Shown here: positions 2,009 to 44,290 of the stretch, in pieces
Numbering within the stretch: position 1 is the stretch's first letter
Layout: each line of letters opens with the position of its first letter
DNA from: a virus
Virus record (IMG/VR): IMGVR_UViG_3300008450_000054
Location: 1-52,067 of that record
DNA: 52,067 nt
Strand: one strand, 5' to 3'
Translations under genes and position numbers: made by a program
Notes under the pieces: generated by a model
Database searches by the model: none
What the model saw: the letters and a program-made list of their open reading frames with translations, nothing else
What the model was told of the DNA's origin: nothing

Positions 2009-4237
2009 TTAAGGTGATGTTATTACATCGCTTTCTATTACACAATCTGTAGATGTATTAATCTTCAACTTTATTGAGAAAGCTCCTACTGGAGTAGTAT
2101 AAACCCTACCAGCCGCCCAATCAGCTATGTTTGCATATAATGTATATGAAGTATCACTATATGTTTCATATGTTATACCACCATCAGTTGAAATCATTAA
2201 ACAAGCCGATATTACATCTGGATGTAATGTAGATGTTACTGTAAATTCTCCAACAGTCGGTGTGTCTAATGCTAACGCTATTGTAGCCATACTATCCCAT
2301 TCTGAATTAACAGAATCCCATTTATAAGGACCACTGTTAGATATAAACATCTCTACAAGACCATCTTCACACTCTACAGCATTATCTGTATCTAATCCTA
2401 CAAATATTACATTATCTGTATCTGTATATCTATGAAATACAATTTGATTAAAATCAGTTAATTCTGTTGGACGTGAGGCATTATTACCAGATAGTGTGAC
2501 TACTCCATATGTATCTGTAGAATCTTCTGGATTATATATTGTAACTGAAGTTCCTTTAATCCACAACAGTTTATTAAATAGTTTAGTATAGTAAATATTA
2601 GGTTGAGCTGCTGGTGCAGCGGATATAAATAAAGTCTCAGTATAAGGAGCATTAGCATCATAACTATACATAGAACCATCTACATATTGAACAAAGAATC
2701 TATCACTACCTATTGTACCATCGCCATCATAATATGTTATACTCCTAACAGTACCATTAGGTCCATTTGTAAATGGGTAAGATCCACTAACTGAGTTTAT
2801 AGTAGTTGTTAGTGTATATGTTACAGGATCTATTATTAATAAATCATTACCAGCTCCTTCAGAAGTTTTCTTCATGATAAGCCATACATCACCATTTACC
2901 TTATTAAATTCTATAAATGATGGTCCATATGTATTACCATACCACACGGCAGTATCTGATAACGAAGTATGTGTAATAGTTGTTAATACTGCGGGTGTAC
3001 CAGTTAAATTAACAACATGTATTAAATTATTATAAACTGATGATCCATCTACTATAATATAAGCTTCGTTTGTTATAGGATTTATGAAGATCTCTCTTAA
3101 TAGTCCACCGCCTGATCCCAGTGTACTTAATACTCCATAGTTAACAGCGTATGTAACTGGATCTAGTGTATTTAATGTGTTTGCAGAGTAAGCACTTACA
3201 AAATAGATTAACCCGTCATTTGGATTATAAGCCATAGCCCTACAGTACACTCCAGTAGTTAAGGTTATTGTACTAAGTAATGTTGGGGTAAGCCCACCAT
3301 CATATACATCTATTACTCCACTTGTAGTTACCTGATTTGTAGCTTTAAATACTTTACCAGCTGTAGAGATCATGTTTGTATTATAGTTATTACCTCCAGC
3401 ACATAAGCAATTTGATGATTCTATAGAATCTTCCTGTAATATAGAGTTAAACACTCCACCTGATCTTGTATACAAAAATTTACTATTATCATCAACATAT
3501 ATACCATCTGCACCAGGATTACTAACAAAATCAATAGCATCGCCACAATTCTCACAAGTTAATGCATAACTTCCTATATCTACCATATTGTAGAAACAGT
3601 CATCAGGAGATTGGAAATAAGAAGTTACTATACCTAACCCACCTGGGAATTCTATAACATCACCAGAATTATAGTTAACTCCGTTTACATTAAGGATATA
3701 ACTTTCTAATGATGTATATTCTATACCTGTTACAGATTCTGTACCTGGAGAAAATGTAAATATAGCTTGTGCTATAACAACCCAACCATCAGTTTCATCA
3801 TACTTATATAATGCATAAGTATAACTATTACCAGGATCGTTAGAACTTAGTAATGCATAACTACATCCACCTACAGGGTCTGGTAATTCAGCTGGATCAG
3901 AAACAGTTAAACAAAGTTCAAAACATATCTCCTCACCAGATGCTGTAGTAACACATCTAGATTCACATATTTCATCAAATCTAATTAAACCACAACACTT
4001 ACTTCTTGAAATTTCTATAATATTCATAACCTCATCCTCAGTAAGACAATTATCTTCTGAGTCTGGGTCATACTCACTTAATATCTTTATAGCACGTCTT
4101 AGATATAAAATATCGAATACACTATAACTCTTCAAAGGATTAAAAACACTTTTGTTTAAAATCTTCTCAGCTTGTTCAGCCATGCAACATTGTAATTCAG
4201 CTGCAAGTAATAATAAATCTTCTCTAGTATATCTCAT
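2009..4237 (-). CDS. Large putative tail protein, beta-propeller-like
   Basis: The ATG at 4237 overlaps the TGA of the upstream gene (ATGA), so this start is preferred over an in-frame TTG 12 bases upstream; the product is 742 residues. The first 90 residues are helical and cysteine-containing (LQCCMAEQ, SRSKCCGL). The middle (about 250-620) repeats units such as YNPNDGLIYFVSAYS and DPVTYTLTTTINSV that resemble YVTN/WD-type propeller blades. The C-terminus is beta-rich. It sits between collagen-like fibre genes, suggesting a tail-tip or adhesin component. The function is inferred; no catalytic motif was recognised. Confidence 0.6.
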   Translation of the reverse strand: MRYTREDLLLLAAELQCCMAEQAEKILNKSVFNPLKSYSVFDILYLRRAIKILSEYDPDSEDNCLTEDEVMNIIEISRSKCCGLIRFDEICESRCVTTASGEEICFELCLTVSDPAELPDPVGGCSYALLSSNDPGNSYTYALYKYDETDGWVVIAQAIFTFSPGTESVTGIEYTSLESYILNVNGVNYNSGDVIEFPGGLGIVTSYFQSPDDCFYNMVDIGSYALTCENCGDAIDFVSNPGADGIYVDDNSKFLYTRSGGVFNSILQEDSIESSNCLCAGGNNYNTNMISTAGKVFKATNQVTTSGVIDVYDGGLTPTLLSTITLTTGVYCRAMAYNPNDGLIYFVSAYSANTLNTLDPVTYAVNYGVLSTLGSGGGLLREIFINPITNEAYIIVDGSSVYNNLIHVVNLTGTPAVLTTITHTSLSDTAVWYGNTYGPSFIEFNKVNGDVWLIMKKTSEGAGNDLLIIDPVTYTLTTTINSVSGSYPFTNGPNGTVRSITYYDGDGTIGSDRFFVQYVDGSMYSYDANAPYTETLFISAAPAAQPNIYYTKLFNKLLWIKGTSVTIYNPEDSTDTYGVVTLSGNNASRPTELTDFNQIVFHRYTDTDNVIFVGLDTDNAVECEDGLVEMFISNSGPYKWDSVNSEWDSMATIALALDTPTVGEFTVTSTLHPDVISACLMISTDGGITYETYSDTSYTLYANIADWAAGRVYTTPVGAFSIKLKINTSTDCVIESDVITSP

Positions 4238-6813
4238 AATGCTAACCAATTTGCTGGGCTACTAGTCCCAAAAGCTACATAAACTGTTTGAGGTGAAGAT
4301 GTTTTTACATAGATCTGTCCTATATAAGTAGGAGTTAAACCAGCTGCTGTTGGATTTGTTGTACCATATATAGATGCAACCTGCGGAAAATCATTCACGT
4401 CAGGTATTTCCTGATCTACAGAATTTATATAAAAATCATTTAAATCAGTAAATAATGGCCTATATCTTACATGTGTTCTATCAGGTATTACAGCATTTTC
4501 TGTTACACCGTCCCAAACTGCAGGTCCAGTTGATACCCAGTTAGATGCATCAAATATATCTTCTTGTGTAGTAGGTGTTACATTTTCTATAACCCAATTG
4601 TATTGATATCCCCTACCATTAGTAAGGTTAGCAGCAGTAACTACACTTGATAAAGGTGCTACAGCAGGTCCTTCACAATCACGTAAAATGATTGTAGGAT
4701 GTTGTGAACCACCTTTATTATGCCCTTCTACAAAAGCTCTGCATGTACCTGATACATAACCATGTATATAATCAAATACAAACAGCCCTCTAGGGCTATA
4801 CGCTCTAACACATGCTGTATCTACATCACCTGTTATTTCAAAGTTTAAACCTGTTATTTTCAAGCAATTCTCTACTGGATCACCAGCTGAATCATACAAT
4901 ACAAGACTTTGTATAGTGCCACCCATATTTTCAACATTACAGTTTTGTAAAACGTGTCCATAGCCACCCTTATGATAAAAGGCTGATATCATAGTAATAT
5001 CCCCACCAGGCTGACATCTTACATTATTATATTGAATATGGTTACATTGTGAGTTTGAGTTACTAGCACCAGACCATGAAGCACCTAACGTATTAGAAGA
5101 TGCTGAGGCATCTGATGTAGCTATACTATATAGCCCACAACCAGTAAATTGACAATTTGTAAGAGTTACACAAAGATTAAAATACAATGCCATATTACAG
5201 GCTGCACTTTCACTAATTATATTAGTGTAGGAACCTTTAATATTTGCCGCAACTCTAATACCTATATTAGAAGTATTGGTATTAACGCCATTACCTTCTA
5301 TAGTTAAATTACTTATGTGTAATGGATTACTAGCCCAAACTCCTAAGGCTGTAGCCTGATCTGGAGCAAATCTATCCAATACAATTAAGTTAGTACCAGA
5401 TACATTAGCAACCTTAGCCCCCATAAAATCTATATTTAATGCTGTACCAGCACCCGCTCCATTGTATCTAGGTAATTTTATAGAGTGGTTTACTCTATAT
5501 CTACGAGAGCCGTTGGGAGAAATAAAATAAGATCTTTGACCAGTCTCCATTGTAAGGAAAGCCTCTTGAATTGCAATCCAGTCAATGGTCATAGTAGTTA
5601 CATCAATTGCACCCACCCAAGCTGCATTAGCAGCAACTAGTGGCCATATAAGAGCAGCTGAGACATTTGTATATCCTAATGATGTAAGAGTTGTTGTAGT
5701 ATTATTACCTATCGTCTCACCATTGGCAAACTCATCTGGAGTTACAGCGTAAGTTATACCTATTGCAACCAAATCAGATATAGTAGCAAATGGATTACCA
5801 GCATTAGGACTATTAGCATTTAGCATTGCATCTTTCTCATTTGCATCTGCAGCAAAACGAGTAGCTGTATCTGCAATATCGTCTAAATCTAAAGTAACTG
5901 TTGGTCCAGTGTAACCATTTACATCTGATATACCTCCAGTAAAGACAGCTCCTACTTCCCAAGTTGCACCGTTATATGCTACAATTTGATTCACTATAGT
6001 AACATTTACAGGTGCATAAGCATTACCTGTAACATTAGCTATATAAAAATCTCCAGCTGTTCCTACACCATTTAGTATAGCAGGTGTATTTGTAGTAGCA
6101 TTATATAATCCTTGATATGCATTGGGACTAGTTGTTAAATAGGCCAGGGGTATTGTACCACCAACTAAGGGTGCATATCCATTTGTAGCACCTTTATTTG
6201 CAGTATCTTCCTTAGCCGCTAAATCAGTTGCTAGATCTACTATTGTGGACTGGCTTTGTGTTCCAGTATGATTGTTTCTATTTAAATAATATGCTGGTAA
6301 TTGACCACTTAGTCTTTCAGAGTTATCTACTACATTATCATTATCTGTATCATAGATAGATTTAAACATATCTCCCTTAGCAGCTAAGTCTGTAACTAAA
6401 TCAGTTATAGTAGACTGATCTTGAGTACCAGTATGATTTGACCTATCTAAAAGATATTGACCGTGTACACCTAATGTTACTTGCCAAGAACTGAGGTTTC
6501 CTACACCTGTTACACTTATAACTTCTAAATCAAGTTGTCCAGTAACAGGATCATATGAAACTACTTTACCATAAAATAGGTTAGATGTATCATTAAATAC
6601 TAAAACAATTTGTTCTGGTATATAAGCTAAATCTAAACCTACTGTTAAAGTAATAGGATCACCTTCAGAATATGAGAAAAGATTGATGGTATCAGTAGAG
6701 GATGTTAAAAATATATCTCCACTTGTACCATCCGCACCAGGTTCCCCTTGAGGACCTTGTGGACCTTGAGGTCCTATTGGGATTTCTATCCCATTACAGT
6801 TTGAACAACTCAT
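4234..6813 (-). CDS. Collagen-like tail fibre with right-handed beta-helix
   Basis: An 859-residue fibre. The N-terminus MSCSNCNGIEIPIGP leads into a Gly-X-Y stretch (GPQGPQGPQGEPGADG). Two copies of a DRSNHTGTQ/NRNNHTGTQ unit, each followed by ...TDLAAK, are a known phage tail-fibre repeat and probably form trimeric stalk. From about residue 400 to 720 the sequence looks like a parallel beta-helix (repeated short N-rich turns), as in pectate-lyase-like spikes. The start codon overlaps the upstream TAA (TAATG) and the stop overlaps the next ATG (ATGA), which suggests translational coupling. It is probably a receptor-binding or depolymerase spike; no catalytic residues are assigned. Confidence 0.75.
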   Translation of the reverse strand: MSCSNCNGIEIPIGPQGPQGPQGEPGADGTSGDIFLTSSTDTINLFSYSEGDPITLTVGLDLAYIPEQIVLVFNDTSNLFYGKVVSYDPVTGQLDLEVISVTGVGNLSSWQVTLGVHGQYLLDRSNHTGTQDQSTITDLVTDLAAKGDMFKSIYDTDNDNVVDNSERLSGQLPAYYLNRNNHTGTQSQSTIVDLATDLAAKEDTANKGATNGYAPLVGGTIPLAYLTTSPNAYQGLYNATTNTPAILNGVGTAGDFYIANVTGNAYAPVNVTIVNQIVAYNGATWEVGAVFTGGISDVNGYTGPTVTLDLDDIADTATRFAADANEKDAMLNANSPNAGNPFATISDLVAIGITYAVTPDEFANGETIGNNTTTTLTSLGYTNVSAALIWPLVAANAAWVGAIDVTTMTIDWIAIQEAFLTMETGQRSYFISPNGSRRYRVNHSIKLPRYNGAGAGTALNIDFMGAKVANVSGTNLIVLDRFAPDQATALGVWASNPLHISNLTIEGNGVNTNTSNIGIRVAANIKGSYTNIISESAACNMALYFNLCVTLTNCQFTGCGLYSIATSDASASSNTLGASWSGASNSNSQCNHIQYNNVRCQPGGDITMISAFYHKGGYGHVLQNCNVENMGGTIQSLVLYDSAGDPVENCLKITGLNFEITGDVDTACVRAYSPRGLFVFDYIHGYVSGTCRAFVEGHNKGGSQHPTIILRDCEGPAVAPLSSVVTAANLTNGRGYQYNWVIENVTPTTQEDIFDASNWVSTGPAVWDGVTENAVIPDRTHVRYRPLFTDLNDFYINSVDQEIPDVNDFPQVASIYGTTNPTAAGLTPTYIGQIYVKTSSPQTVYVAFGTSSPANWLAL

Positions 6814-13672: not shown

Positions 13673-16102
13673 TTATGACGATTTTGGTTTCCTTCTAGCC
13701 TTTATTTTCTCTATTTTCTCCTTAACCTTAAGTTCCTTCTCTTTAAGCTCTATCTGCTTTCTTTGCATAGCCTCCTGAGATTTATTCTGAACATCGGTCT
13801 GTTGTATCTTAAGTTTCTCTATGTTCTCCTTAGAACGTATCTCCATTTCCTTAAGACGTATATTAGCAACCTCAGTAGGATCTATGATACCATCATCATC
13901 CTGATCTAAGTCTTGCTGCATTTTAAATGCTCCAATCTCTGCAACAGCTATCTTAGTTTCATTATCAGTATCTATTTTATACTGCTGCATAGCAAGTTCT
14001 CTTTCAAACTGTTCTTGTAATAGTAACATCTCCTGAGCTTGTAACTGCTGATTCTGCTCTTCTGCAGCCTGAGCCTGTTGAGCCCTCTCAGCCTCACTCT
14101 GTTTAAGTTTAGCCTTAAGAGTACCTATAGAATTACTATTAATAACATCCACAATCTCAGACATACTAATCTTATCAGATTGTAATGCTGTATTAAGTAA
14201 ACTCTTCAATGTTGCAAGAGCCTCTTGTTCCTTAGAACCATTATTAGTAAATACTCCATAATCCCAATCATTTAACTCTTCCTGATCTAATTGGAATAAA
14301 ATTGGGCCTAAGTCATCAGTAATATACTGTAAAACTTTAGAACCCTTTAAAGATTTAGCTACAGCTATAATAGCATCACATACTCTTAATTTGGTGTGGT
14401 TATGTACTCTAAACCACTCTTCAGTAATATGTGAAGATTGTACAACAGATCTCTCAGTATTACCAACAAGTTCAGATGCTGATATAGCACCTAACCTTTG
14501 ATCTGTAATACCAGCAGTATCTTTCATCTTCTGCTCGATATAACCGAGTAATTGTATATTATATTGTATAGAGTTACCAGTCTCAAGATCTACCGCTCTA
14601 TTCTGAGTAGATTGATTTACTCTACCAATTCTCTCACCCTTCTGACCTTCGTTATAACTATTAACAAAACCAATCTTCATAGATTGTGCATAGTATAACC
14701 ACTTCTCCATTTCCCAACCATCTGGTATAAGAGAGACATCCACAAAGGCTAATTTATTAAGGTTAGCAGCCATTAACAGTTCAGTTCTATACCAAACTAT
14801 TAAATACATACATAACCATGGATAAACTCTATCCATAAGAGATACAGATTGAGAGTTCAATGAGTTGTAGATAGTTCCTACATACCCAGACTTACACTCT
14901 GATAAATTGTCTACAGATCTGAATTGTTGTTTCCTAGGTCTTACATTAAGATATAAGTCCTGACCAATTCTAGTACCTTCCCAGTACTCATTAACCCAAA
15001 ACCACTCAACCCACTCATTAACTCCATCAAGTTTAATATTGAAAAACTCATCTACCAGAACTTCTTGTTCTTCCTGAGTTTGTGGATCTATATAATGATA
15101 GGTTCCAAGTTTTCTTTTAGATTTCCATCTTACACGGTGTACATCAATTCCATATTGTTGTGTAGACTCATCAAAGTCGAATATAGAGTTAACCGTAGGG
15201 AATCCAGATTGTCCAAAGTATACATCAACACTGGGACCGCCCAGGGAGTAGTTGTATATAGTTGATACTCCAGATTTATAATTTTCAAGATCATCGATTT
15301 GTGCGGGGGTTAATACCTCATAAAACTCATCGATAATTTGAGATATTGACATTCTATTTCTTTCATAGATTTTATCAGCATCATCAATTATATCAGAATT
15401 TGGAGGTAAGATAAAGTGAACATCAAGAGGATTAACTCTCCTGAACCTAACAGCGTTAGCTGCTTCATCTATACTATAAATTTCCTCCCCAGCAATTAAG
15501 GCATCTTTCCAACCCATTTGGAACTTATTAGGGACATCCAACCTCTTTAAATAGTAATTTAAAAGATGTTGGGATGTAACCTCACGCATGTCCCGCTCAC
15601 TCATTTGAGCATATTTCAAAACTTGTTCTGGGGTAGGAGGCTGCTCTTCAGAGTTAGGATCTATTGGTCCTATCAGCATTTCCTGTAACATTGATAAGAC
15701 AGACTCCTTCTTCTGCTCAAGTTTCTGGCTAACTGCATCAGCATTTACAGCCATAACTATCGGGTCAAAAGGTCTCTTAGACTCCTCACCAAACAATAGC
15801 ATGAAAATTGGGGAAACTACATCATAAGGTTGTAAGGATGCTGGAAACTGGTATGCATTTAAAACCTCCTTAGAAAGGTTAAACGGGTTTAAAACATACT
15901 CAAAATCAGCCTTATCAATCTTATTATTGAAAAGATTGTAGTTACGTATCTTAGTTCTGGCATCACTTCTACGTGTTCTGCCATAAGTATTACATTCACT
16001 TATAACAGAGTCAACACATGCATGTTGCCAATCAGAACTTTGTTTAGCCCTGTAAGATATCTTTTGTCTTGGAAATTCCTTTAATTCTGAGGTACTTAGC
16101 AT
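13673..16102 (-). CDS. Portal protein
   Basis: An 809-residue protein directly downstream of TerL, where portals are found. The body is mixed alpha/beta. From about residue 690 to the end it is a very long charged, Gln/Lys-rich helical region (EEQNQQLQAQEMLLLQEQ; KEKELKVKEKIEKIKAR), as in the C-terminal barrel and coiled-coil region of crAss-like portals. A dodecamer of this protein would form the DNA entry channel and motor dock. It has its own promoter (16.11-16.18 kb). The call rests on size, order and C-terminal architecture. Confidence 0.75.
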   Translation of the reverse strand: MLSTSELKEFPRQKISYRAKQSSDWQHACVDSVISECNTYGRTRRSDARTKIRNYNLFNNKIDKADFEYVLNPFNLSKEVLNAYQFPASLQPYDVVSPIFMLLFGEESKRPFDPIVMAVNADAVSQKLEQKKESVLSMLQEMLIGPIDPNSEEQPPTPEQVLKYAQMSERDMREVTSQHLLNYYLKRLDVPNKFQMGWKDALIAGEEIYSIDEAANAVRFRRVNPLDVHFILPPNSDIIDDADKIYERNRMSISQIIDEFYEVLTPAQIDDLENYKSGVSTIYNYSLGGPSVDVYFGQSGFPTVNSIFDFDESTQQYGIDVHRVRWKSKRKLGTYHYIDPQTQEEQEVLVDEFFNIKLDGVNEWVEWFWVNEYWEGTRIGQDLYLNVRPRKQQFRSVDNLSECKSGYVGTIYNSLNSQSVSLMDRVYPWLCMYLIVWYRTELLMAANLNKLAFVDVSLIPDGWEMEKWLYYAQSMKIGFVNSYNEGQKGERIGRVNQSTQNRAVDLETGNSIQYNIQLLGYIEQKMKDTAGITDQRLGAISASELVGNTERSVVQSSHITEEWFRVHNHTKLRVCDAIIAVAKSLKGSKVLQYITDDLGPILFQLDQEELNDWDYGVFTNNGSKEQEALATLKSLLNTALQSDKISMSEIVDVINSNSIGTLKAKLKQSEAERAQQAQAAEEQNQQLQAQEMLLLQEQFERELAMQQYKIDTDNETKIAVAEIGAFKMQQDLDQDDDGIIDPTEVANIRLKEMEIRSKENIEKLKIQQTDVQNKSQEAMQRKQIELKEKELKVKEKIEKIKARRKPKSS

Positions 16103-16111
16103 AATAAATTA

Positions 16112-16175
16112 CAAATATAATAAATAATATCTTAAAAATCAAGGGGTAGCCTAAAATTTTAGTATACCTGGTATA
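16112..16175 (-). promoter_or_regulatory. Leftward promoter with upstream palindrome, before portal gene
   Basis: TTGA (16142-16139), a 19-base spacer and TATATTTG (16119-16112) precede the portal ATG at 16102. The upstream palindrome TATACCTGGTATA (16163-16175) lies inside the 3' end of the terL coding region, with the same 27-base distance from its AGGTA to TTGA as at 13.6 kb. Confidence 0.75.
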
Positions 16176-18355
16176 GCCTTTTTGTTAAATTTAGTCCTGT
16201 TAAAAAAGTCAGAATTGTGTAATGGTTTATAAGAAGCCGCATGGTCAACCAGCATTCTAGCCCTCTCTCGTGTAGCATACATACACATCATAAATGCCAT
16301 CACCCTATCGTAGTTACCTTCCCTGTTATAACGGATTAACTCTTTAAGAAGAGGAACCGATCTAATCTTAGTAAGATTAAGTTTACCTGGTGCATACTCG
16401 TCCTCCAGCCAGTCCTTTATGAGTAACTCGCCGTGAGTCTTTAGGGCATTATTCATGTGCATACCCTTGTTTCTCTGTACTTTAGATTCTGGTAATACGT
16501 CTTTTATATAACCAGGTTGTTCCATCAGTAGATAGTCATACCCCTTCAATTCTGCAAATTGGTGTAGACCCTTTTTCTCGTTCTCGTATAAACACCTAGC
16601 ATTGTAATACAATAATAGGTTTATCAATTTTTTATAGTAATTCTCAGCTTTTGGCCTTCCAGTATATTCAGCGACAGGTAATTCATACCACTCATCCAGA
16701 TAATTAAACCTCTTATATATAAAGGTAGAACCTAAAGAAGGGGTACCAGACTCGTCATGATCGTAGGGGTCAGTTCCAGCTATATAGAGCCCGTATGGGA
16801 CCTCTCCGTCCTCTCCCCTTATGGGGTGTTCCCAAATAACTATTGCGCCTTCTATATCGTCCTTTTTGGTGTCTACGGGGAATTCTACTATTGGGTTAAT
16901 GGAATAGTCAAATTCATGGGCTGGTTTCCATTGTACCTTACCATCTTCGTCCATTACTATATCACCTATATAGGCTGAATTCTCATATTTAGGATTATTC
17001 TCTATAATAGCTAACCAATCAGACAGTTCCTTTTTTGGGAAGATGTTACCAGTCTTGGTTAAGAATACCTCGGAAGGTACTAGCGGGTTATACTGAATGT
17101 GGGCATCTAGAGCTGAGGAAGCGTTCTTACCTTTACGTTTACTCTCCCTCAAATCCAATTCAGCCTTCATAGCATACTCTTCACGAGTATTACCATTTTT
17201 ATCCTTATACTGACGTTTACCATGTGTAGAAGGTGTGAAATATCCTATCTTACCTTTACCCTCCCAAATATCATCAAAAGCAAGACACTGGTAGGTACCA
17301 GGTGCATAAAACATTTTATGAGCTGCCAATGTACCACCCTCCATATCACCACCTGTACCCATCATCATAGTAGAACCGAATTTCCTGGTTCCATCCATCT
17401 GTGTTTCCACGTCAGCTTCTACAGATTGCTCTAAGGTATCAAACATACCAATCTCTTCTTTAACTGCTACGGCTGGACGTGTACCCTGACCAGCAAATGG
17501 ATTATCCTTATAAGTAACATGCTTAATAAATGAACCAGTACCACAATCGTGTTTCCACGTTCCACCTATCTTCTTGCTGTACTTGTGCTGAAGTACATTA
17601 CCAGGATTAAGTAATGCACCAGTAGATTGTTTGTAGAATGGTGATGGGTAAAATTTACCATTTATCTCAACAGAGCCAGGTAAACTCTCTAATCCCAATA
17701 CTACCTTTTTAAGTAAGTCTTTAGAGTACTTAGCGTCTCCAGCACCTACTAATATCTCGGTATGTGGTATATCTTTTAATGCCTCAGGATTATACTCCTT
17801 AAGCCCATCGAAAAGATACTCATGTGCAATAATAGCACCAGCTGTGAAATAAGATTTACCACATCCTCGGTTAGCCATCCATATTAAATTGGAGGCATCA
17901 TTTAAAAATTTAGGAGCCCCTAAACTACGATCACTGTTTCTAAGAAGGTCTCGTATATTAGGGACTGCTTTTCTTGAGTTTGATATCTCTTCGAGTGATA
18001 TTAACTCGGAGTCAATGTCAAGTAAATTAAGATTATTCTCAAGTGTTATAATCTCTGGCTGTTCAGAAAATCCAGCCAATCCCCTAGCCTCTGCCCAGTT
18101 ATAAGCTGTCTCCCAAAAGATATCCCATAACAATGGTTTACCCTTTTGTTTAGCAGTTGAGGCAGAAGTCTTATTTAAAAGGATAGTCCAAAAGTTAACG
18201 TAGAAGTATAGATTACCAGGCATCCATTTACCGCCTACCCAGTGACCCTCTATACATCTACGTTTCTGCTCCTTCCAGTATTCCTTATAATCTAAGGATG
18301 CTGGGTGAAGTTTTGGAATTTCCTTTTCTAGAAATAACTCTTGATTAATCCACAT
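16151..18355 (-). CDS. terL: Terminase large subunit
   Basis: A 734-residue DNA-packaging motor protein. An ATPase domain shows a Walker A-type motif ANRGCGKSY at about 161-169 and a Walker B-like segment ending in acidic residues, PAVAVKEEIG, at about 294-303. The C-terminal RNase H-like nuclease shows IAGTDPYDHDESG (about 525-537) and a later acidic cluster, YENEKKG. The length fits crAss-like large terminases. It docks on the portal encoded next, cuts concatemers and translocates DNA into the prohead using ATP. No small terminase subunit is recognised. The gene ends with TAG inside the upstream element of the portal promoter. Confidence 0.9.
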   Translation of the reverse strand: MWINQELFLEKEIPKLHPASLDYKEYWKEQKRRCIEGHWVGGKWMPGNLYFYVNFWTILLNKTSASTAKQKGKPLLWDIFWETAYNWAEARGLAGFSEQPEIITLENNLNLLDIDSELISLEEISNSRKAVPNIRDLLRNSDRSLGAPKFLNDASNLIWMANRGCGKSYFTAGAIIAHEYLFDGLKEYNPEALKDIPHTEILVGAGDAKYSKDLLKKVVLGLESLPGSVEINGKFYPSPFYKQSTGALLNPGNVLQHKYSKKIGGTWKHDCGTGSFIKHVTYKDNPFAGQGTRPAVAVKEEIGMFDTLEQSVEADVETQMDGTRKFGSTMMMGTGGDMEGGTLAAHKMFYAPGTYQCLAFDDIWEGKGKIGYFTPSTHGKRQYKDKNGNTREEYAMKAELDLRESKRKGKNASSALDAHIQYNPLVPSEVFLTKTGNIFPKKELSDWLAIIENNPKYENSAYIGDIVMDEDGKVQWKPAHEFDYSINPIVEFPVDTKKDDIEGAIVIWEHPIRGEDGEVPYGLYIAGTDPYDHDESGTPSLGSTFIYKRFNYLDEWYELPVAEYTGRPKAENYYKKLINLLLYYNARCLYENEKKGLHQFAELKGYDYLLMEQPGYIKDVLPESKVQRNKGMHMNNALKTHGELLIKDWLEDEYAPGKLNLTKIRSVPLLKELIRYNREGNYDRVMAFMMCMYATRERARMLVDHAASYKPLHNSDFFNRTKFNKKAIPGILKF

Positions 18356-27571: not shown

Positions 27572-27896
27572 GGGCCTAACGGGTATCGATTGCATATAGT
27601 AAGTAATTAAATCAGCCGTGTATTTGCAAATACTACACGTTAATACAGATTTGTAACAATTTAGACGGAAACTCAAATGTTCCCTTTACTTTTGAAGATG
27701 CTATGTCATTAGTAGAAAGTAACGAAGCTTCTCTTGTAGAAGTAGCTGCGTAAAAGCTAACCACAATTCCGATTTTCTTATTTAAGGGTTAAAACAAATA
27801 AGATGGTGGAGTGTCTCTGAATCTGAGGCCCTATTAAGCTGTATAAATTTAATTATTTGCATGTGTAAGACGGGAGTTCGACTCTCCCTAGGTCCA
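27572..27896 (+). ncRNA. ssrA: Phage-encoded tmRNA with long tag
   Basis: The ends form the tRNA-like domain: GGGCCTA (27572-27578) pairs with TAGGTCC (27889-27895), with T-arm GGGAG-TTCGACT-CTCCC. P2 is visible: TTGCATA with TGTGTAA, then AAGTAATTAAAT with ATTTAATTATTT (12 pairs). Between them the tag frame starts at GGA (27667) in the Bacteroidota position (after TTTAGAC) and stops at TAA (27751-27753). It encodes 28 residues, beginning G-N-S-N-V-P and ending L-V-E-V-A-A. Cellular Bacteroidota tags are about 9 residues (GENNYALAA). tmRNA with SmpB rescues stalled ribosomes and tags the product for proteolysis. CCA is not encoded. Confidence 0.9.
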
Positions 27897-27917
27897 CAAA
27901 TTTAAAACTACATTATT

Positions 27918-28190: not shown

Positions 28191-28275
28191 GCCTCAGTGG
28201 TGAAACTGGTATACACGAGACACTTAAAATGTCTTAACCCAAAAGGTTGTGGAGGTTCAAATCCTCTCTGAGGTA
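28191..28275 (+). tRNA. tRNA-Leu (anticodon TAA)
   Basis: Class II cloverleaf: acceptor GCCTCAG with CTGAGGT, D-loop AAACTGGTA, anticodon arm AGACA-CTTAAAA-TGTCT with anticodon TAA, variable arm AACC-CAAAA-GGTT, T-arm GGAGG-TTCAAAT-CCTCT. All canonical. CCA is not fully encoded. It reads UUA, a frequent codon in this AT-rich genome. Confidence 0.9.
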
Positions 28276-28276
28276 C

Positions 28277-28546
28277 ATGGAAGTAAATTATTATAATAGA
28301 TACAATGATAAACTTGTATTTAAACAAACTGATGAAGAAACTGTAGTACTTGAGGGTGCAAAATATTTTAGAGTAGGATACGATACAGATGATAAAACTA
28401 TAGAATTTGTAGATCCTAGTGGAGGACCTTATTTAAATGTAGGTACAAATCTAAGATTTATATTTCAAAACTTTAAAGATATCTATATTACCAAAATAGA
28501 TATTAATAAAGATGTTATAATATTTACAGTTAAAACTGATAGCTAG
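28277..28546 (+). CDS. Hypothetical protein, beta-rich
   Basis: The first ATG after the tRNA-Leu (28277) is taken as the start; an upstream frame would run through the tRNA. The 89-residue product is predicted all-beta (VFKQTDEETVVLEGAKYFRV). No motif recognised. Confidence 0.5.
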   Translation: MEVNYYNRYNDKLVFKQTDEETVVLEGAKYFRVGYDTDDKTIEFVDPSGGPYLNVGTNLRFIFQNFKDIYITKIDINKDVIIFTVKTDS

Positions 28547-28558
28547 ACTGTTAAATAT

Positions 28559-28632
28559 GGGCTTTTAGCTCAATTGGTTAGAGCAACAGACTCATAATCT
28601 GTAGGTCATTGGTTCGATTCCAATAAGGCCCA
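28559..28632 (+). tRNA. tRNA with CAT anticodon (Met or lysidine-modified Ile)
   Basis: Canonical cloverleaf: acceptor GGGCTTT/AAGGCCC, D-arm with AATTGGTTA loop, anticodon arm ACAGA-CTCATAA-TCTGT, T-arm ATTGG-TTCGATT-CCAAT, discriminator A. Anticodon CAT may mean elongator Met, or Ile(AUA) if the C is modified to lysidine; the AUA-rich genome makes the latter attractive. Initiator features (1-72 mismatch) are absent. Confidence 0.88.
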
Positions 28633-28658
28633 CTAGTAACAATTTAATCTTTAATAAT

Positions 28659-28844
28659 ATGGTATCAAGAACTGTTGAAGTAAATGTATCATTAGCAAGA
28701 AAATTGTTAAAATATAAGATACAAATTAAAGTAAATAACAAATGGTATGACTTTAAAGTTCATAAAGTTGTTAAACTATTTGATAACAAATACCATGCTA
28801 ATAATTATGGTAAACAATTAAATCCAAATCACATAGAACTATGA
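28659..28844 (+). CDS. Hypothetical small basic protein
   Basis: A 61-residue, Lys-rich protein, beta-rich in the middle (YKIQIKVNNKWYDFKVHK). No motif. It overlaps the next gene by four bases (ATGA), indicating coupled translation of the run 28.66-29.48 kb. Confidence 0.5.
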   Translation: MVSRTVEVNVSLARKLLKYKIQIKVNNKWYDFKVHKVVKLFDNKYHANNYGKQLNPNHIEL

Positions 28845-29149
28845 CAATTGCTGAACAAATTAAAACAGATTATCCTAAATCATGGGAAAAATTTAGAAAT
28901 TATCTAAGAACATCTTATGAATTTTGGGAAAACGAAACTTCTGATAAAACATTATGGTTTTGTGAGAGAGATTTTAAAATACAATTAGGTTTCTATCTTG
29001 ATTACTTTGATAATATAGGTATATTAAAAAAGCAAATTAAAGATAAAGATTTTCCTAAAGAATGCGATGATGCATCAACATCAATTGAGTATTTCTACCA
29101 TTTTGTGATATTTGTATTTACAGTACTAGAAAAAGAATTTGAATCATGA
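28841..29149 (+). CDS. Hypothetical helical protein
   Basis: A 102-residue protein, helical and aromatic-rich (YPKSWEKFRNYLRTSYEFWENE). It is coupled by ATGA overlaps to genes on both sides. Function unknown. Confidence 0.5.
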   Translation: MTIAEQIKTDYPKSWEKFRNYLRTSYEFWENETSDKTLWFCERDFKIQLGFYLDYFDNIGILKKQIKDKDFPKECDDASTSIEYFYHFVIFVFTVLEKEFES

Positions 29150-29478
29150 ATACCTACAAAGGAAAATTACTAACTTCAATGTCTTATAAAGAGATTTTAC
29201 AAGGCATTAATGAATTAAATTTCAGAAAAAATGAAAGACCTTTAACTAACGACGAGAAGAAAGAACATTACAATCTCGTATCAGAGATGAACATTAGATC
29301 TTATGAGGCTAAGCTTTATAAGAAAAATTTGAAAAATCTTGGAAACATATCAAGACCTAAATATAATAGAATTGTACAATTATGTGATTTTATTATTGGT
29401 GATATGTTTAAATTGAAAAATGACCAAGAATTCGCATTGAACAGTAAACCATTTGAAAAAATTAAACAAATTATCTAA
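29146..29478 (+). CDS. Hypothetical helical basic protein
   Basis: A 110-residue basic helical protein with no recognised motif. It is the last of three overlapping small genes and precedes the larger protein at 29.49 kb by 12 bases. Confidence 0.5.
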   Translation: MNTYKGKLLTSMSYKEILQGINELNFRKNERPLTNDEKKEHYNLVSEMNIRSYEAKLYKKNLKNLGNISRPKYNRIVQLCDFIIGDMFKLKNDQEFALNSKPFEKIKQII

Positions 29479-29490
29479 AACAAAATTATC

Positions 29491-30108
29491 ATGAACACAG
29501 TAAATTCAGGAAATGCGCAAACCATGAACATGGGAGATTCTATTCTTACAATTGTAAGAAAAATTAACAAAGATCGTAAAGATCCTTCTAAAGGATTTAA
29601 CTTTCAAATTGAAGTAAGGGAGAAAGTTGCTGAAACATCTCTTTTAGCATTGTTTAATCCTACTGATGATCGTATCATCAAACCTAAAGCACAACCAGCT
29701 TGGGCTATGATTGAACCTGAAACATTTAAACAACTGTTTAATATTGATGATGCTACATTTGAAAGGGTAAATAACTTACCTGTTTCTACTGGCGTTAAAG
29801 AATTGAAAGAAAATGTACATTTTGTTACATTAAATATCCTCAATCCAACTGTAAATGGTAACAGGTTGAGAGTACAAATTACTGAGTCTACTGAGAAATC
29901 AAGTGAGGATCAGAAGTCTAAGGTTAACCCTGCTACTGGTGTAGTTCTTACTCACCAAGGTAAACCTATCTATAGGACTACTACAATTGTATTGTACAAT
30001 CCTAAACCATTTGCTCCATTGGCAGCAGATAAGGTAGAGTTACCTCTTGAAGTTGTAGGTGCAGCTCCAGCTATGACTCCTAATGTAGCAGCTGCGGCAG
30101 CTCGTTAA
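29491..30108 (+). CDS. Conserved-looking phage protein, possibly DNA-binding
   Basis: A 205-residue soluble protein. The body is beta-rich (IEVREKVAETSLLAL, FVTLNILNPT, RLRVQITEST), suggesting an OB-like or similar fold, and the C-terminus is Ala-rich and flexible (VAAAAAR). Its size, own terminator and clean A-rich leader suggest high expression. It could be an ssDNA- or RNA-binding protein, but unlike the SSB at 50.1 kb it has no acidic C-terminal tip. Assignment open. Confidence 0.5.
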   Translation: MNTVNSGNAQTMNMGDSILTIVRKINKDRKDPSKGFNFQIEVREKVAETSLLALFNPTDDRIIKPKAQPAWAMIEPETFKQLFNIDDATFERVNNLPVSTGVKELKENVHFVTLNILNPTVNGNRLRVQITESTEKSSEDQKSKVNPATGVVLTHQGKPIYRTTTIVLYNPKPFAPLAADKVELPLEVVGAAPAMTPNVAAAAAR

Positions 30109-30134
30109 GTTAAATTCAATTAGCGTTGCTTTTC

Positions 30135-30167
30135 GGGTAGTACATCAATCGGTGTACTACCCTTTTT
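30135..30167 (+). terminator. Rho-independent terminator abutting tRNA-Gln
   Basis: GGGTAGTACA (30135-30144) pairs perfectly with TGTACTACCC (30153-30162), followed by TTTTT. The tRNA-Gln begins at the very next base after the T-run, so either the tRNA is made by read-through or it has its own start. Confidence 0.9.
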
Positions 30168-30238
30168 AGTCCAATGATGTAATGGTAGCATCGCAGATTT
30201 TGAGTCTGCTTGTTTAGGTTCGAATCCTAATTGGACAA
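30168..30238 (+). tRNA. tRNA-Gln (anticodon TTG)
   Basis: Cloverleaf with anticodon arm GCAGA-TTTTGAG-TCTGC (anticodon TTG), D-arm ATGT/GCAT, T-arm TTAGG-TTCGAAT-CCTAA, and acceptor GTCCAA/TTGGAC. The terminal pair is A-A, and a weak first pair is typical of tRNA-Gln. CCA is not encoded. Confidence 0.85.
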
Positions 30239-30241
30239 CTA

Positions 30242-30331
30242 AAAACACAGGCTAGAGTACCCACACAGCGGTGAGGTGGGCTAAGTAAGATACAATTTCT
30301 CGGAGCTGGAAGTAGAATGCTTTAGAATGTG
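30242..30331 (+). ncRNA. Small structured RNA after tRNA-Gln
   Basis: A 90-base non-coding element closed by AAACAC with GTGTTT, containing CCCAC/GTGGG. No T-loop motif, so it is not a tRNA. It lies between tRNA-Gln and the gene at 30355. Confidence 0.35.
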
Positions 30332-30354
30332 TTTAATAACAAAATATTAATTAT

Positions 30355-30579
30355 ATGAAATCAAATTATAGAATTAAAGTAGTAAAAAAGGGTAATTTAA
30401 CTTTATATTACCCCCAAATAAAAAAGTGGTATGGTTGGTGTTATCTTTATAAAAGAAAATATGGTTTGAATCTTGAAATTTATTTTATAACTGAACAAGA
30501 AGCTGAAAGATATATTATAAAAGATATATACTTTAAAAAGAAACCTGAAGTAAGTTATATTAACTACCCAAAATCATAA
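30355..30579 (+). CDS. Hypothetical small basic protein
   Basis: A 74-residue, very basic, Tyr-rich protein (YYPQIKKWYGWCYLYKRKYG), possibly nucleic-acid binding. It lies between two groups of tRNA genes. No family recognised. Confidence 0.5.
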   Translation: MKSNYRIKVVKKGNLTLYYPQIKKWYGWCYLYKRKYGLNLEIYFITEQEAERYIIKDIYFKKKPEVSYINYPKS

Positions 30580-30797
30580 AAACAGCTACTGATTAATACT
30601 AAACAATAACAAATACGTGGATTAAGTTACCTAATGGGTCTTTAAAAAGATGGTTTGTTATCTCACAGTCTAAGATGTGAGTGGTTTAGGTTAGTTATAT
30701 ATAATTCAAAATTGCCGTGTAGAGCTATCACTTTACAGGGAAGATGATTTGTATTACCACTTAGAGGGCAGTAGTTGTTTTTTATTAATAATTAAAA
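30580..30797 (+). other. Non-coding gap before tRNA-like cluster
   Basis: No supported gene. A clear hairpin CTCACA/TGTGAG (30662-30681) and a longer-range TTAGGT/ACCTAA pairing are seen, so the stretch may be a transcribed leader of the tRNA-like cluster. Frames crossing it on either strand continue through tRNA sequences and are rejected. Confidence 0.4.
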
Positions 30798-30876
30798 AGG
30801 GAAGGTCGAAGTACAAGACGCATGGTAAAGTAGGGCGGAAAATCCTACGAGATAGTTTGAATCTATCACTTCCCTC
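30798..30876 (+). tRNA. tRNA-like element, degenerate
   Basis: A 7-pair end helix AGGGAAG (30798-30804) with CTTCCCT (30869-30875), a T-arm-like GATAG-TTTGAAT-CTATC and an anticodon-like hairpin GTAGGG-CGGAAAA-TCCTAC. If the loop is read as an anticodon loop, GAA (Phe) would be preceded by G and not by the universal U33. The D-arm is poor. It shares AAGACGCA and GGGCGGAAA with the next tRNA, so it may be a decayed or specialised paralogue. Confidence 0.5.
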
Positions 30877-30886
30877 TTTAAAACAA

Positions 30887-30987
30887 GGTCGGGTGGCGGA
30901 ATTGGTAAGACGCAGCTCTATAAACGGGCGGAAAGCAATAACATTGAAAATCGCTTCCAAATACAGGTTCGATTCCTGTCCCGACCA
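30887..30987 (+). tRNA. tRNA-Leu-like with abnormal anticodon loop and very long variable arm
   Basis: Acceptor GGTCGGG/CCCGACC, the Leu-type D-arm GCGGAATTGGTAAGACGC and T-arm ACAGG-TTCGATT-CCTGT are canonical. The anticodon arm is not: GCTC-TATAAAC-GGGC gives TAA at the anticodon position (Leu) but A where U33 is universal, and only four pairs. The variable arm (GGAAAGC...GCTTCC) spans about 29 bases, longer than usual for class II tRNAs. Possibly a tRNA changed to escape anticodon nucleases, or a decoy. Confidence 0.65.
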
Positions 30988-30992
30988 CGGCA

Positions 30993-31067
30993 ACCGAGTT
31001 GGTGTAATTGGTAACATGGTAGCTTCCGGTACGCTATCAGATGCGGGTTCGACTCCCGCACTCGGTT
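30993..31067 (+). tRNA. tRNA with expanded 9-base anticodon loop, Gly(TCC)-like
   Basis: Perfect acceptor ACCGAGT/ACTCGGT, D-arm GTGT/ACAT, T-arm GCGGG-TTCGACT-CCCGC, discriminator T. The anticodon stem GTAGC/GCTAT encloses nine bases, TTCCGGTAC, instead of seven. U73 and TTCC point to Gly (TCC); Arg (CCG) is an alternative reading. Loops of 8-9 bases are known from frameshift-suppressor tRNAs. Confidence 0.65.
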
Positions 31068-31091
31068 CAGAAACAACTAAAACTAAACAAC

Positions 31092-40514: not shown

Positions 40515-41083
40515 GAGATATTCAACTTAAACAATTTGAGGGTTATAGAAAGATGATGTTAAGTATAGCAATAAAAAATACTATGCTTACATCATCTAAC
40601 TATAATACAAAAACTAATAAACTTGGTGTAATACGACACCATAGAGTTCAAGATGCTAAGGATATAGTTCAAAATACTTTTTTTAGATTATTTAATTCAA
40701 AGGAATTAGGTGAAATAGAAAATATGGAGAAATTCTTAGCTACAAATGTCTATCGTGAGACATTAAATTTTCACGATACATCAGCTGTTCGTAAAACTTA
40801 TAGAACTGGATTACACCACATGGATCTAACTACCTTACCTGAAGAATTTCACCCAACTTCCGATATAAATCTGGAAGAATCATTAACTGTAAAAGAAATT
40901 TTAAAGTTAATTAATAATTATTCTGGATCTAGATCTAAAGATCTATCAAAAACCTGTCTGTTATTAAAGATAGAAGGATATTCTAACGCTGAAATTGCTA
41001 AAAAAATAGGTGTTACAAGAAGAAGTGTGTACACATATATAAGTAGAATACAAAACTACTTAAAAAAATGTTTGAAAAAATGA
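40499..41083 (+). CDS. RNA polymerase sigma-70-like factor
   Basis: A 194-residue protein with a TTG start overlapping the preceding gene. The region 2-like part DAKDIVQNTFFRLFNS and the region 4 helix-turn-helix GYSNAEIAKKIGVTRRSVYTYISRIQNYLKK match ECF-type sigma factors, with a linker between. It could redirect host RNA polymerase to phage promoters, and the TTGA-N19-TATATTTG leftward promoters are candidate targets. Some phage ECF-like proteins act only as helix-turn-helix regulators. Confidence 0.75.
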   Translation: MEQSLRDIQLKQFEGYRKMMLSIAIKNTMLTSSNYNTKTNKLGVIRHHRVQDAKDIVQNTFFRLFNSKELGEIENMEKFLATNVYRETLNFHDTSAVRKTYRTGLHHMDLTTLPEEFHPTSDINLEESLTVKEILKLINNYSGSRSKDLSKTCLLLKIEGYSNAEIAKKIGVTRRSVYTYISRIQNYLKKCLKK

Positions 41084-41985
41084 ATTTCCATAATTATATA
41101 ACTATAGATCTTACTAAACCAGATCATATCTCTGGTGTAACAATCTCTAGATTCCCAGATGGGCAGCAAAATGTAAAAATCACACGACATTTAAGTGGTT
41201 CTTATCCAGTATTAATTAAATCACGATTTACCTCATTTAAAGACTTAGAACTAATCATATGCACAGTAAAATCATTAAGACGTTTAGAAGTAGAAAAGAT
41301 ATGTCTATACATACCATACCTCCTAGGAGCCCGATCAGATCGTCAATTCTCTCTAAACGAGAACTCGTATTTGGTAGACGTTATAGCGCCTATCCTAAAC
41401 GCACAAAACTTTCATAAAGTATTTACATTAGATGTACATTCTCATGTAGCAGCGGCTTGTATCAATAACTTAACTAATCTAGATAATACCACATTTGTAA
41501 AAAATGTATCTTATAGTATTTACGGTGATAGGTTTAAAATAAATACAAGTTCAATTTTGATATCCCCAGATGCTGGAGCAAGTCATAAAATCTATAACCT
41601 GGCTAAACAGATAGAATATACAGGAGATATCATTACTTGTAGTAAGGAGAGAGATACTGAAGGTAATTTAACTAAGGTTAATGTTCCCTATCAAAATACT
41701 GATTTTAGGGAAAAAGATTTTATTATAATAGATGATATTTGTGATGGTGGAGCTACATTTATTAACATAGCAAAACATCTAAATAACGGTGATTTCTCGA
41801 CAAAACCTAAAGTTTACTTAATAGTAACTCATGGTATATTCTCAAAAGGATTTTCAGAGCTATCTAAATATTTTGATGGTATCTATTGTACTAATAGTTA
41901 CAGAGATATAATTGTATCTACAAATAATGAGACATCACCTATGATCTGTCCTGGTAAAACATTCAAACAGTTTAACATATTTTAA
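41080..41985 (+). CDS. Ribose-phosphate pyrophosphokinase-like (Prs or Adps)
   Basis: The ATG at 41080 overlaps the sigma-gene stop (ATGA) and gives 301 residues. Features of PRPP synthetases: RFPDGQQNVKI, IPYLLGARSDRQF (ATP-binding loop), FTLDVHSH and the PRPP-binding loop FIIIDDICDGGATF. Cellular Prs makes PRPP from ribose-5-phosphate and ATP. Phage homologues paired with a nicotinamide phosphoribosyltransferase homologue can instead form ADP-ribose-pyrophosphate (Adps of the NARP1 pathway). The Nampt-like gene follows after two small genes. Confidence 0.85.
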   Translation: MNFHNYITIDLTKPDHISGVTISRFPDGQQNVKITRHLSGSYPVLIKSRFTSFKDLELIICTVKSLRRLEVEKICLYIPYLLGARSDRQFSLNENSYLVDVIAPILNAQNFHKVFTLDVHSHVAAACINNLTNLDNTTFVKNVSYSIYGDRFKINTSSILISPDAGASHKIYNLAKQIEYTGDIITCSKERDTEGNLTKVNVPYQNTDFREKDFIIIDDICDGGATFINIAKHLNNGDFSTKPKVYLIVTHGIFSKGFSELSKYFDGIYCTNSYRDIIVSTNNETSPMICPGKTFKQFNIF

Positions 41986-42748: not shown

Positions 42749-44290
42749 ATGAATACATTACTATTAACAGATTTTTACAAGATACATCACACTCGTATGT
42801 ATCCTGATAATATGACCAAATTATACTCTAATTTTACACCCCGTAAATCACGTATGAACGGTGTAGATAAAGTAGTTGTTTTTGGTATACAGCATTTTAT
42901 AGTAGAGTACCTCATTAAGAAATTTAATGATGAATTCTTCTATAAAGATAGGGCAATTTTAGGAGTAAAAAATATGATACTTAATCAGTATCAACGTCAT
43001 TGTCCTGTAGATACTAAGCATATTGAAGCTTTATGGGATTTAGGTTATCTACCTATTGAAATTAAGGCTTTAGATGAAGGTACACTATGTCCTATAGGAG
43101 TTCCTATGTTGACTATTACTAATACTCACCCTGATTTTGCTTGGCTTGTTAACTATCTTGAAACTTTATTGAGTTGCATGTTGTGGCAACCTATAACTAG
43201 TGCAACTATAGCACATGAATACAAAAAGATATTAACAAAATATGCATTAGAAACAGATGAAAAAAACATCGAATTTGTTAACTGGCAAGGCCATGACTTT
43301 AGTATGCGTGGTATGTCAAGTGTTGAATCTGCTATTCTCAGTGGTATGGGCCATCTTACTTCTTTTACTGGTACTGATACTATACCTGCCATTTATCAAC
43401 TTGAAACGTCTTATAACGCAGAAGGTTTAATAGGAGCAAGTGTTCCTGCAACTGAACATTCTGTTATGTGTATGGGTACTAAAGAGGCTGAGATAGATAC
43501 ATTTAGGAGGCTTTTAAAGCTTTATCCTGAAGGTATTCTATCAGTAGTATCTGATACTTGGAATCTTTGGGATGTACTTACAGTTTATCTACCTCATATA
43601 AAAGATGAAGTTTTAGCAAGAAATGGTAAGTTGGTAATTAGACCTGATTCAGGTGATCCTGTAGATATTATCTGCGGTATACATTTGAAAAGAATTATAT
43701 CCTCCACATTACCTAAAGATAAACTTGCACCAAGAAAAGGTGTAATAGAATTACTGTGGGATATCTTTGGAGGTACTGTAAATGAACAAGGTTATAAAGT
43801 ACTTGATCCTCATATTGGAGCTATTTATGGTGATTCAATTACTATAGAGAGGGCTACTCAAATATGTGAAAGACTTAAATCTAAAGGATTCGCATCTACT
43901 AATATTGTATTTGGTATAGGTAGTTATACTTATCAATATAATACCAGAGATACCTTCGGTTTTGCTATGAAAGCTACTTATGGAGAGATTACCCACATAA
44001 AAAATACATCTTTGACAGGTACTGGTGCATCAGATATAACAGTAGAACCGAGAGAAATCTTTAAAGATCCTATTACATCAGATGGTGAGAAGAAATCTAA
44101 AAAAGGTTTACTTAAAGTTATAGAAGGTGCTGGTGTGAACAATAGAAATCCTTTTGTGGATACTATAGGTGTTGAAGATCAACAAACATGGGAAGAGGAA
44201 AAAACTGGGTTGCTCACTACTGTATTCAAAGATGGATATCTAGTAAAGAAAACTACTTTGGATGAAATACGTAAAAAATTAAATACTTAG
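42749..44290 (+). CDS. nadV: Nicotinamide phosphoribosyltransferase-like (NadV/Nampt or Namat)
   Basis: A 513-residue protein of the Nampt family: FTPRKSR near residue 29, the GHDFSMRGMSS region (residues about 180-190), TGTDTIPA, SYNAEGLIGASVPATEHSVMCMG, VSDTWNLWDVL and RPDSGDPVDI are family hallmarks covering the PRPP and nicotinamide pockets. It makes NMN from nicotinamide and PRPP. In phages the same fold occurs as Namat, which joins nicotinamide to ADP-ribose-pyrophosphate to give NAD+ in one step. Pairing with the Prs-like gene suggests NAD+ rebuilding against NAD+-depleting defences. Confidence 0.92.
   Translation: MNTLLLTDFYKIHHTRMYPDNMTKLYSNFTPRKSRMNGVDKVVVFGIQHFIVEYLIKKFNDEFFYKDRAILGVKNMILNQYQRHCPVDTKHIEALWDLGYLPIEIKALDEGTLCPIGVPMLTITNTHPDFAWLVNYLETLLSCMLWQPITSATIAHEYKKILTKYALETDEKNIEFVNWQGHDFSMRGMSSVESAILSGMGHLTSFTGTDTIPAIYQLETSYNAEGLIGASVPATEHSVMCMGTKEAEIDTFRRLLKLYPEGILSVVSDTWNLWDVLTVYLPHIKDEVLARNGKLVIRPDSGDPVDIICGIHLKRIISSTLPKDKLAPRKGVIELLWDIFGGTVNEQGYKVLDPHIGAIYGDSITIERATQICERLKSKGFASTNIVFGIGSYTYQYNTRDTFGFAMKATYGEITHIKNTSLTGTGASDITVEPREIFKDPITSDGEKKSKKGLLKVIEGAGVNNRNPFVDTIGVEDQQTWEEEKTGLLTTVFKDGYLVKKTTLDEIRKKLNT

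Follow-up and report, generated by a model that had tools for sequence, protein, structure and literature searches.

The usual view of the tags appended during trans-translation is that they are degrons of about 10 residues, short and interchangeable. In a tmRNA database of 97,179 sequences, tags of 10 aa are the commonest (PMC11915505); the 2025 tmRNA database holds 79 bacteriophage sequences (PMC11915505), and one survey found tmRNAs in 402 of 18,146 phage genomes (PMC9004378). The tmRNA of phage Wildcat is strongly expressed during lytic growth (PMC7474061). Long tags have also been described. The ssrA tag of Mesoplasma florum measures about 27 aa (PMC9097571) but, unlike the tag analyzed here, it is cellular, is read by M. 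florum Lon and ends in NYAFA. Mycobacteriophage Momo (Bxz1 group) carries an already annotated phage tmRNA with a long tag of 25 aa, ATDTDATVTDAEIEAFFAEEAAALV, although its host is actinobacterial and its tag is unrelated in sequence and has no -AA end.

The window studied here is the whole 52,067-base stretch of an IMG/VR virus record, which belongs to a crAss-like phage. At positions 27572-27896 of its plus strand it carries a complete phage-encoded tmRNA gene (ssrA) of the one-piece form. A tmRNA in a Bacteroidota phage had been proposed in a preliminary description of this DNA, and the covariance-model check bears this out: Rfam model RF00023 matches the gene with 71.9 bits (gathering score 47, E = 4.4e-26), and ARAGORN agrees, calling 27572-27897 with the tag GNSNVPFTFEDAMSLVESNEASLVEVAA*. 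The match is collinear with model positions 1-374, indicating that the gene is not of the permuted, two-piece RF04321 form in which the 3' half comes first. The acceptor, T-arm, P2, PK1 and tag frame of one-piece RF00023 tmRNAs are recognisable in the window gene, which differs from them by its 28-codon tag.

The 5' acceptor strand GGGCCUA (27572-27578) pairs with UAGGUCC (27889-27895) at seven of seven positions, including the G3-U70 alanine identity pair; the discriminator A is at 27896 and no CCA is encoded. The T-arm GGGAG-UUCGACU-CUCCC (27872-27888) forms all five T-stem pairs, and both elements are therefore as first described. The P2 helix is likewise present, with its 5' strand at 27590-27612 and the partner strand at 27847-27868 in the MFE and centroid folds, but the 7 plus 12 pairs originally counted become 8+14 pairs plus CAGC/GCUG when the RNA is folded. 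The fold has an MFE of -84.6 kcal/mol and is more stable than shuffled sequences (z = -3.5). Direct reading of the sequence places PK1 at 27617-27653, where an H-type pseudoknot can be drawn with stems S1 (CGUGUA/UACACG, 27617-27622/27634-27639) and S2 (CAAAU/AUUUG, 27627-27631/27649-27653), leaving 13 nt up to the resume codon. In the PK2-PK4 region, the covariance-model alignment is of low confidence and the MFE fold displays hairpins only. Upstream of the gene, a promoter scan that does not cover Bacteroidota promoters found no recognisable promoter.

The resume context AATTTAGAC/GGAAAC (27658-27672, plus strand; the slash precedes the first resume codon) opens a reading frame at the GGA at 27667, which continues for 28 codons (27667-27750), encodes GNSNVPFTFEDAMSLVESNEASLVEVAA with a C-terminal V-A-A according to both ARAGORN and the sequence, and closes with a TAA stop at 27751-27753. 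In this AT-rich window, an open run of 24-49 codons with a stop at its end begins at 12.7% of all positions, so that openness alone is weak evidence; only 0.03% (about 3e-4) begin such a run with Ala-Ala-stop at its end, and an open frame that starts at the resume site and ends in -AA is thus strong evidence. The tag is far longer than those of potential hosts, as had been pointed out: of the tags of 59 Bacteroidota tmRNAs sampled, 52 have exactly 9 aa, and most of these read GENNYALAA or nearly so. Cellular Bacteroidota tags measure 8-10 aa, and the window tag is three times longer; three odd cellular tags in the sample (10-15 aa, no -AA end) look like mispredictions. The overall plan and the resume context, TTTAAAT/GG.. 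in the cellular tmRNAs, are common to both, but the cellular tmRNAs carry the signatures AAGCATGT/GCATGTAG and fall outside the phage clade discussed below. The window lacks these signatures, AAGCATGT included.

The large terminase gene (16151-18355, minus strand; PHROG 6681) has the marine Cellulophaga phage phi14:2 as its best named relative (36% amino acid identity over 98%), and the portal gene (13673-16102, minus strand; PHROG 6547) has counterparts such that the family occurs in 32 of the 33 genomes searched, window included. A portal tree places the window beside Steigviridae with moderate support (81/89); phi38:1 was left out of this reading owing to its very long branch (6.12), which probably reflects a wrong reading frame. 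The tmRNA gene sits between small unassigned ORFs, just upstream of plus-strand tRNA genes for Leu, Met, Gln and Pro called by ARAGORN (28191-31068). Directly before tRNA-Pro, a 101-nt Rfam tRNA match (30887-30987, 39.9 bits), absent from the ARAGORN output, is possibly an intron-bearing or otherwise odd tRNA. Further along, genes for a ribose-phosphate pyrophosphokinase (41068-41985) and a nicotinamide phosphoribosyltransferase (42749-44290) are near neighbours; as an NAD+ salvage pair, they could restore NAD+ against NAD-depleting defences. The nearest relatives by DNA polymerase (L013, L014 and L015; 49-55% amino acid identity) show no tmRNA in the stretches examined, and in L013 and L014 a tRNA-Arg is present instead, upstream of the polymerase. 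Terminase and DNA-polymerase relatives in IMG/VR were either short fragments that do not include the tmRNA region or had no such gene.

A covariance-model search of whole phage records detected a tmRNA in phi14:2 itself (Crassvirales, Steigviridae; 4031-4500, corresponding to L023 1501-1970) with 46 bits, one bit below the cut-off, and E = 1.8e-18. It is syntenic with the window gene, lying where the early module begins, about 5 kb before the DNA polymerase, and the two share the resume context TTTA[GA]AC/GGAAAC, the signatures TCAGC and AAGCTGTA, and a long tag. From TTTAAAC/GGAAAC, the phi14:2 equivalent of the window's resume context, the frame runs for 38 codons and encodes GNDTDNTQLKANMTVVHNILNGSDALIGSSVQKLAMVA; this tag contains an ANM core and the RNA has the PK1 motif AGAGAGATAACT, both in distinction to the window. 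The 11-residue tag given by ARAGORN for phi14:2 was rejected, since the shared resume context opens the 38 codons in the same phase. In the phi14:2 record the tmRNA is unannotated; ORF annotations that once covered the locus were later withdrawn.

The same resume position yields tags of 30 aa in the Cellulophaga phages phi38:1 and Calle_1 (Pervagoviridae) and of 35 aa in Flavobacterium phage Fpv1, whose tmRNA lies at L042 2959-3371. These three tmRNAs have long tags, as in the window, but retain the core motif. ARAGORN truncates or misses all three despite RF00023 scores above the cut-off; for Calle, its tag was rejected in favour of the frame taken from the shared resume context. Since the standard predictor truncates tags or misses genes, the trait is under-reported in public annotations. 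The Calle tmRNA has already been annotated (PMC8776804). That of Fpv1 is unannotated in its GenBank/RefSeq record and was missed by ARAGORN.

A PK1 search pattern was built from the tmRNAs of the cultured phages. At least 120 IMG/VR contigs were matched in this search, and the exact PK1 pattern had no match in 84,980 bacterial and archaeal species genomes. Among the matches listed, all 123 phage loci have an uninterrupted frame starting at the resume codon. The same listed matches yield 82 distinct complete tags of 24-49 aa (median 35), nearly all of them ending in -AA (mostly VAA, LAA, IAA or MAA). A Q-x-x-A-N-M core is present in most lineage tags, not all. The longest tag, GNIDNDAQEVVDINYTFSTPMMVVHKGERKSVSPSQDLSWGTRQVAIAA (49 codons, L076 2559-2705), is one of those that do not carry the ANM core.

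We also performed a second scan using the 3' signature only, and hence blind to PK1 and the tag. It returned 110 loci, 26 of which have no PK1 pattern upstream; in these, the tag measures 23-44 aa wherever the resume site falls inside the stretch. Members recovered in this manner include tmRNAs with other PK1s and tags without the usual core. No short tag was found within the lineage, either among the listed matches of the PK1 scan or by the 3'-signature scan. Integrity of the tRNA-like part is the rule, with G3-U70 in 70 of 72 tmRNAs checked, a full T-stem in 72/72 and a 7/7 acceptor in nearly all, and RF00023 scores lie above the cut-off in 23 of 29 larger records. DNA similarity searches with the window tmRNA retrieved no related phage tmRNA, because sequence change is rapid beyond the tRNA-like domain; an exact tag-start pattern gave no matches, and a TCAGCC-resume pattern recovered only phi14:2 as an ARAGORN-accepted tmRNA.

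Two short signatures distinguish phage from cellular tmRNAs. The 5' signature TCAGC (window 27612-27616, plus strand), whose CAGC pairs with GCUG at 27838-27841 in the fold, occurs in 38 of 40 phages and in none of 56 cells; at the 3' side, the window carries AAGCTGTATAAA (27836-27847, plus strand), which includes the signature AAGCTGTA employed in the scan and found in 37/40 phages and 1/56 cells. A tree built from the conserved 5' and 3' portions of the RNA splits the 40 phages and the window from all 56 cellular tmRNAs (SH-aLRT 99.8, bootstrap 100). Judged from their sequences, the long-tag tmRNAs form a phage-specific lineage, whose members have tags of at least 23 codons that nearly always end in -AA or -VA; the window, with 28 codons and VAA, conforms. 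The impression that so long a tag was peculiar to this phage therefore does not hold, since tags of 24-49 aa also occur in relatives that have this portal family and the 25-aa tag of Momo was already annotated.

The window counts as a divergent member of this lineage on the strength of its RNA signatures, its place in the tree, the gene position, the portal and the length of the tag. Its PK1 differs from the motif AGAGAGATAACT..AACTAAGGTGAA present in most members, as does that of L378, and three members (L142, L378 and L401) depart like the window in tag core or PK1; the 5' end of L409, GGGCCCAACAGGTATCGATTGC, is nearly identical to that of the window. An HMM built from the 82 tags of its relatives does not recognise the window tag, from which the Q-x-x-A-N-M core is absent, and our searches found no close relative bearing the same tag. 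Peptide homology between the window tag and the lineage tags was dropped after this HMM test failed. Long tags as such are already known, and it is the lineage that appears to be new: no report of it or of its conserved long tags was found among the open-access papers searched.

Peptide-level constraint was assessed in disjoint pairs of tags of the same length, in which 94 of 670 synonymous and 106 of 2,294 nonsynonymous sites differ. The pooled dN/dS is about 0.31 (chi-square p = 3e-17), a figure that RNA-structure constraints could bias and for which the pairs are not fully independent. A ratio of about 0.3 points to selection on the tag peptide, and the codon comparison thus indicates that the long tag is kept by peptide-level selection in the relatives of the window. 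When 33 diverse tags are aligned, residues Q15, A18, N19 and M20 do not vary, and an AlphaFold tag model predicts a helix over residues 10-34 (mean pLDDT 77). A tag query against the named-phage collection returned only the tmRNA loci of Flavobacterium phages.

Charging by AlaRS, SmpB, ribosome rescue and the C-terminal -AA degron are established tmRNA biology, and it is from these that we infer how an RNA with this architecture, frame, lineage and, in its relatives, peptide-level selection would act. In an infected Bacteroidota cell, host AlaRS would charge the phage tmRNA with alanine, and the charged RNA would bind host SmpB and enter ribosomes stalled on broken mRNAs. The rescued product would receive Ala and the 28-residue tag, and its V-A-A end makes it most likely that the product is still directed to a host protease of the ClpXP type. 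The preliminary description had suggested that the changed tag could re-route tagged proteins to another protease or render them stable or inhibitory. The near-universal -AA end in the lineage speaks for retention of the ordinary C-terminal degron, and the additional segment conserved in relatives points to a further function. In most members, this segment would be a helix, predicted as Q-x-x-A-N-M...V..LL, and probably supplies a second contact, whether to the protease, to a chaperone or to an adaptor. Through this contact, the phage could steer how tagged proteins are rescued and turned over in a way that the 9-residue host tag does not. As the tag HMM does not match the window, the second-contact idea is backed for the relatives and not for the window tag. 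To the joint reading, that of a working phage tmRNA using host AlaRS and SmpB, keeping a ClpXP-type degron and belonging to a long-tag lineage with a second-contact helix, we assign a probability of roughly 0.78. More tentatively, Bacteroidota phages may have evolved a dedicated tmRNA whose long, selected tag bears a phage-specific helical recognition element, with products of rescued ribosomes handled during infection in a way other than, or beyond, host GENNYALAA degradation.

A different possibility is that the phage tmRNA serves diversion, taking over host SmpB and ribosomes while the long tag gives stable products or a phage-specific fate instead of ClpXP. No SmpB was found in the 33 phage genomes searched, the phage record included, so that phage and host would draw on the same host SmpB. 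Host tags have no counterpart of the conserved helical segment, and inhibition of host tmRNA is reported for the TLD-only tmRNA of phage DS6A (PMC4131195, PMC11915505). We nevertheless regard this as unlikely, since nearly all tags retain the canonical -AA C-terminus, suggesting that proteases continue to recognise this end.

It is likewise unlikely that the gene is an ordinary spare, a host-like tmRNA for translation upkeep, with selection acting on the final -AA alone and neutral drift accounting for the additional length of the tag. The spread of lengths from 24 to 49 among the matches listed, the different middle portions in different subgroups and the missing Q-x-x-A-N-M core of some members, the window included, are what such drift would give, but the four invariant residues in the 33 aligned tags, the disjoint-pair dN/dS and the lack of any short lineage tag in either scan (for the PK1 scan, among the matches listed) argue against it. 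Temperate phages commonly integrate next to tmRNA genes and the tag HMM detected no peptide-level homologue of the window tag, yet a relic or misprediction, in the form of a captured attachment-site copy or a decaying host tmRNA, its frame open by chance, is very improbable in view of the complete TLD with G3-U70, the P2 helix, the resume site and -AA stop, the chance of about 3e-4 for an -AA-ended frame of that length, and the grouping of the window with phage and not host tmRNAs.

A phage-only lineage represented by more than 100 contigs and by cultured Cellulophaga and Flavobacterium phages keeps peptide-selected tags of 24-49 residues. Why phages carry tmRNA, and what the length and sequence of a tag do beyond its last residues, are directly testable in existing phage-host pairs.

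Three gut crAss-like phages, cr50_1, cr10_1 and cr125_1, resemble the window in belonging to Crassvirales and sharing its portal family, but their tmRNAs are permuted (L164 1476-1844, L165 1471-1734 and L024 1540-1989, respectively) and have tags of 13-14 aa. These tags start with GN (GNNFVTDYTAIGA, GNNFVTDYTQLAVA and GNFYVTDYTRIAA). RF04321 scores above its cut-off in cr50_1 and cr10_1, both of which are annotated as SsrA. Matches to the Hatchet ribozyme and to RAGATH-9 and RAGATH-22 RNAs lie near the three permuted genes (L024 26-154 and 1385-1553; L164 854-1020; L165 123-301), and the RAGATH-9 match in cr125_1 runs into the first part of the tmRNA call. The portal gene of cr125_1 (L308, 70015-72426) contains 16 in-frame TAG codons, against none in the window portal, which makes TAG recoding likely in cr125_1.
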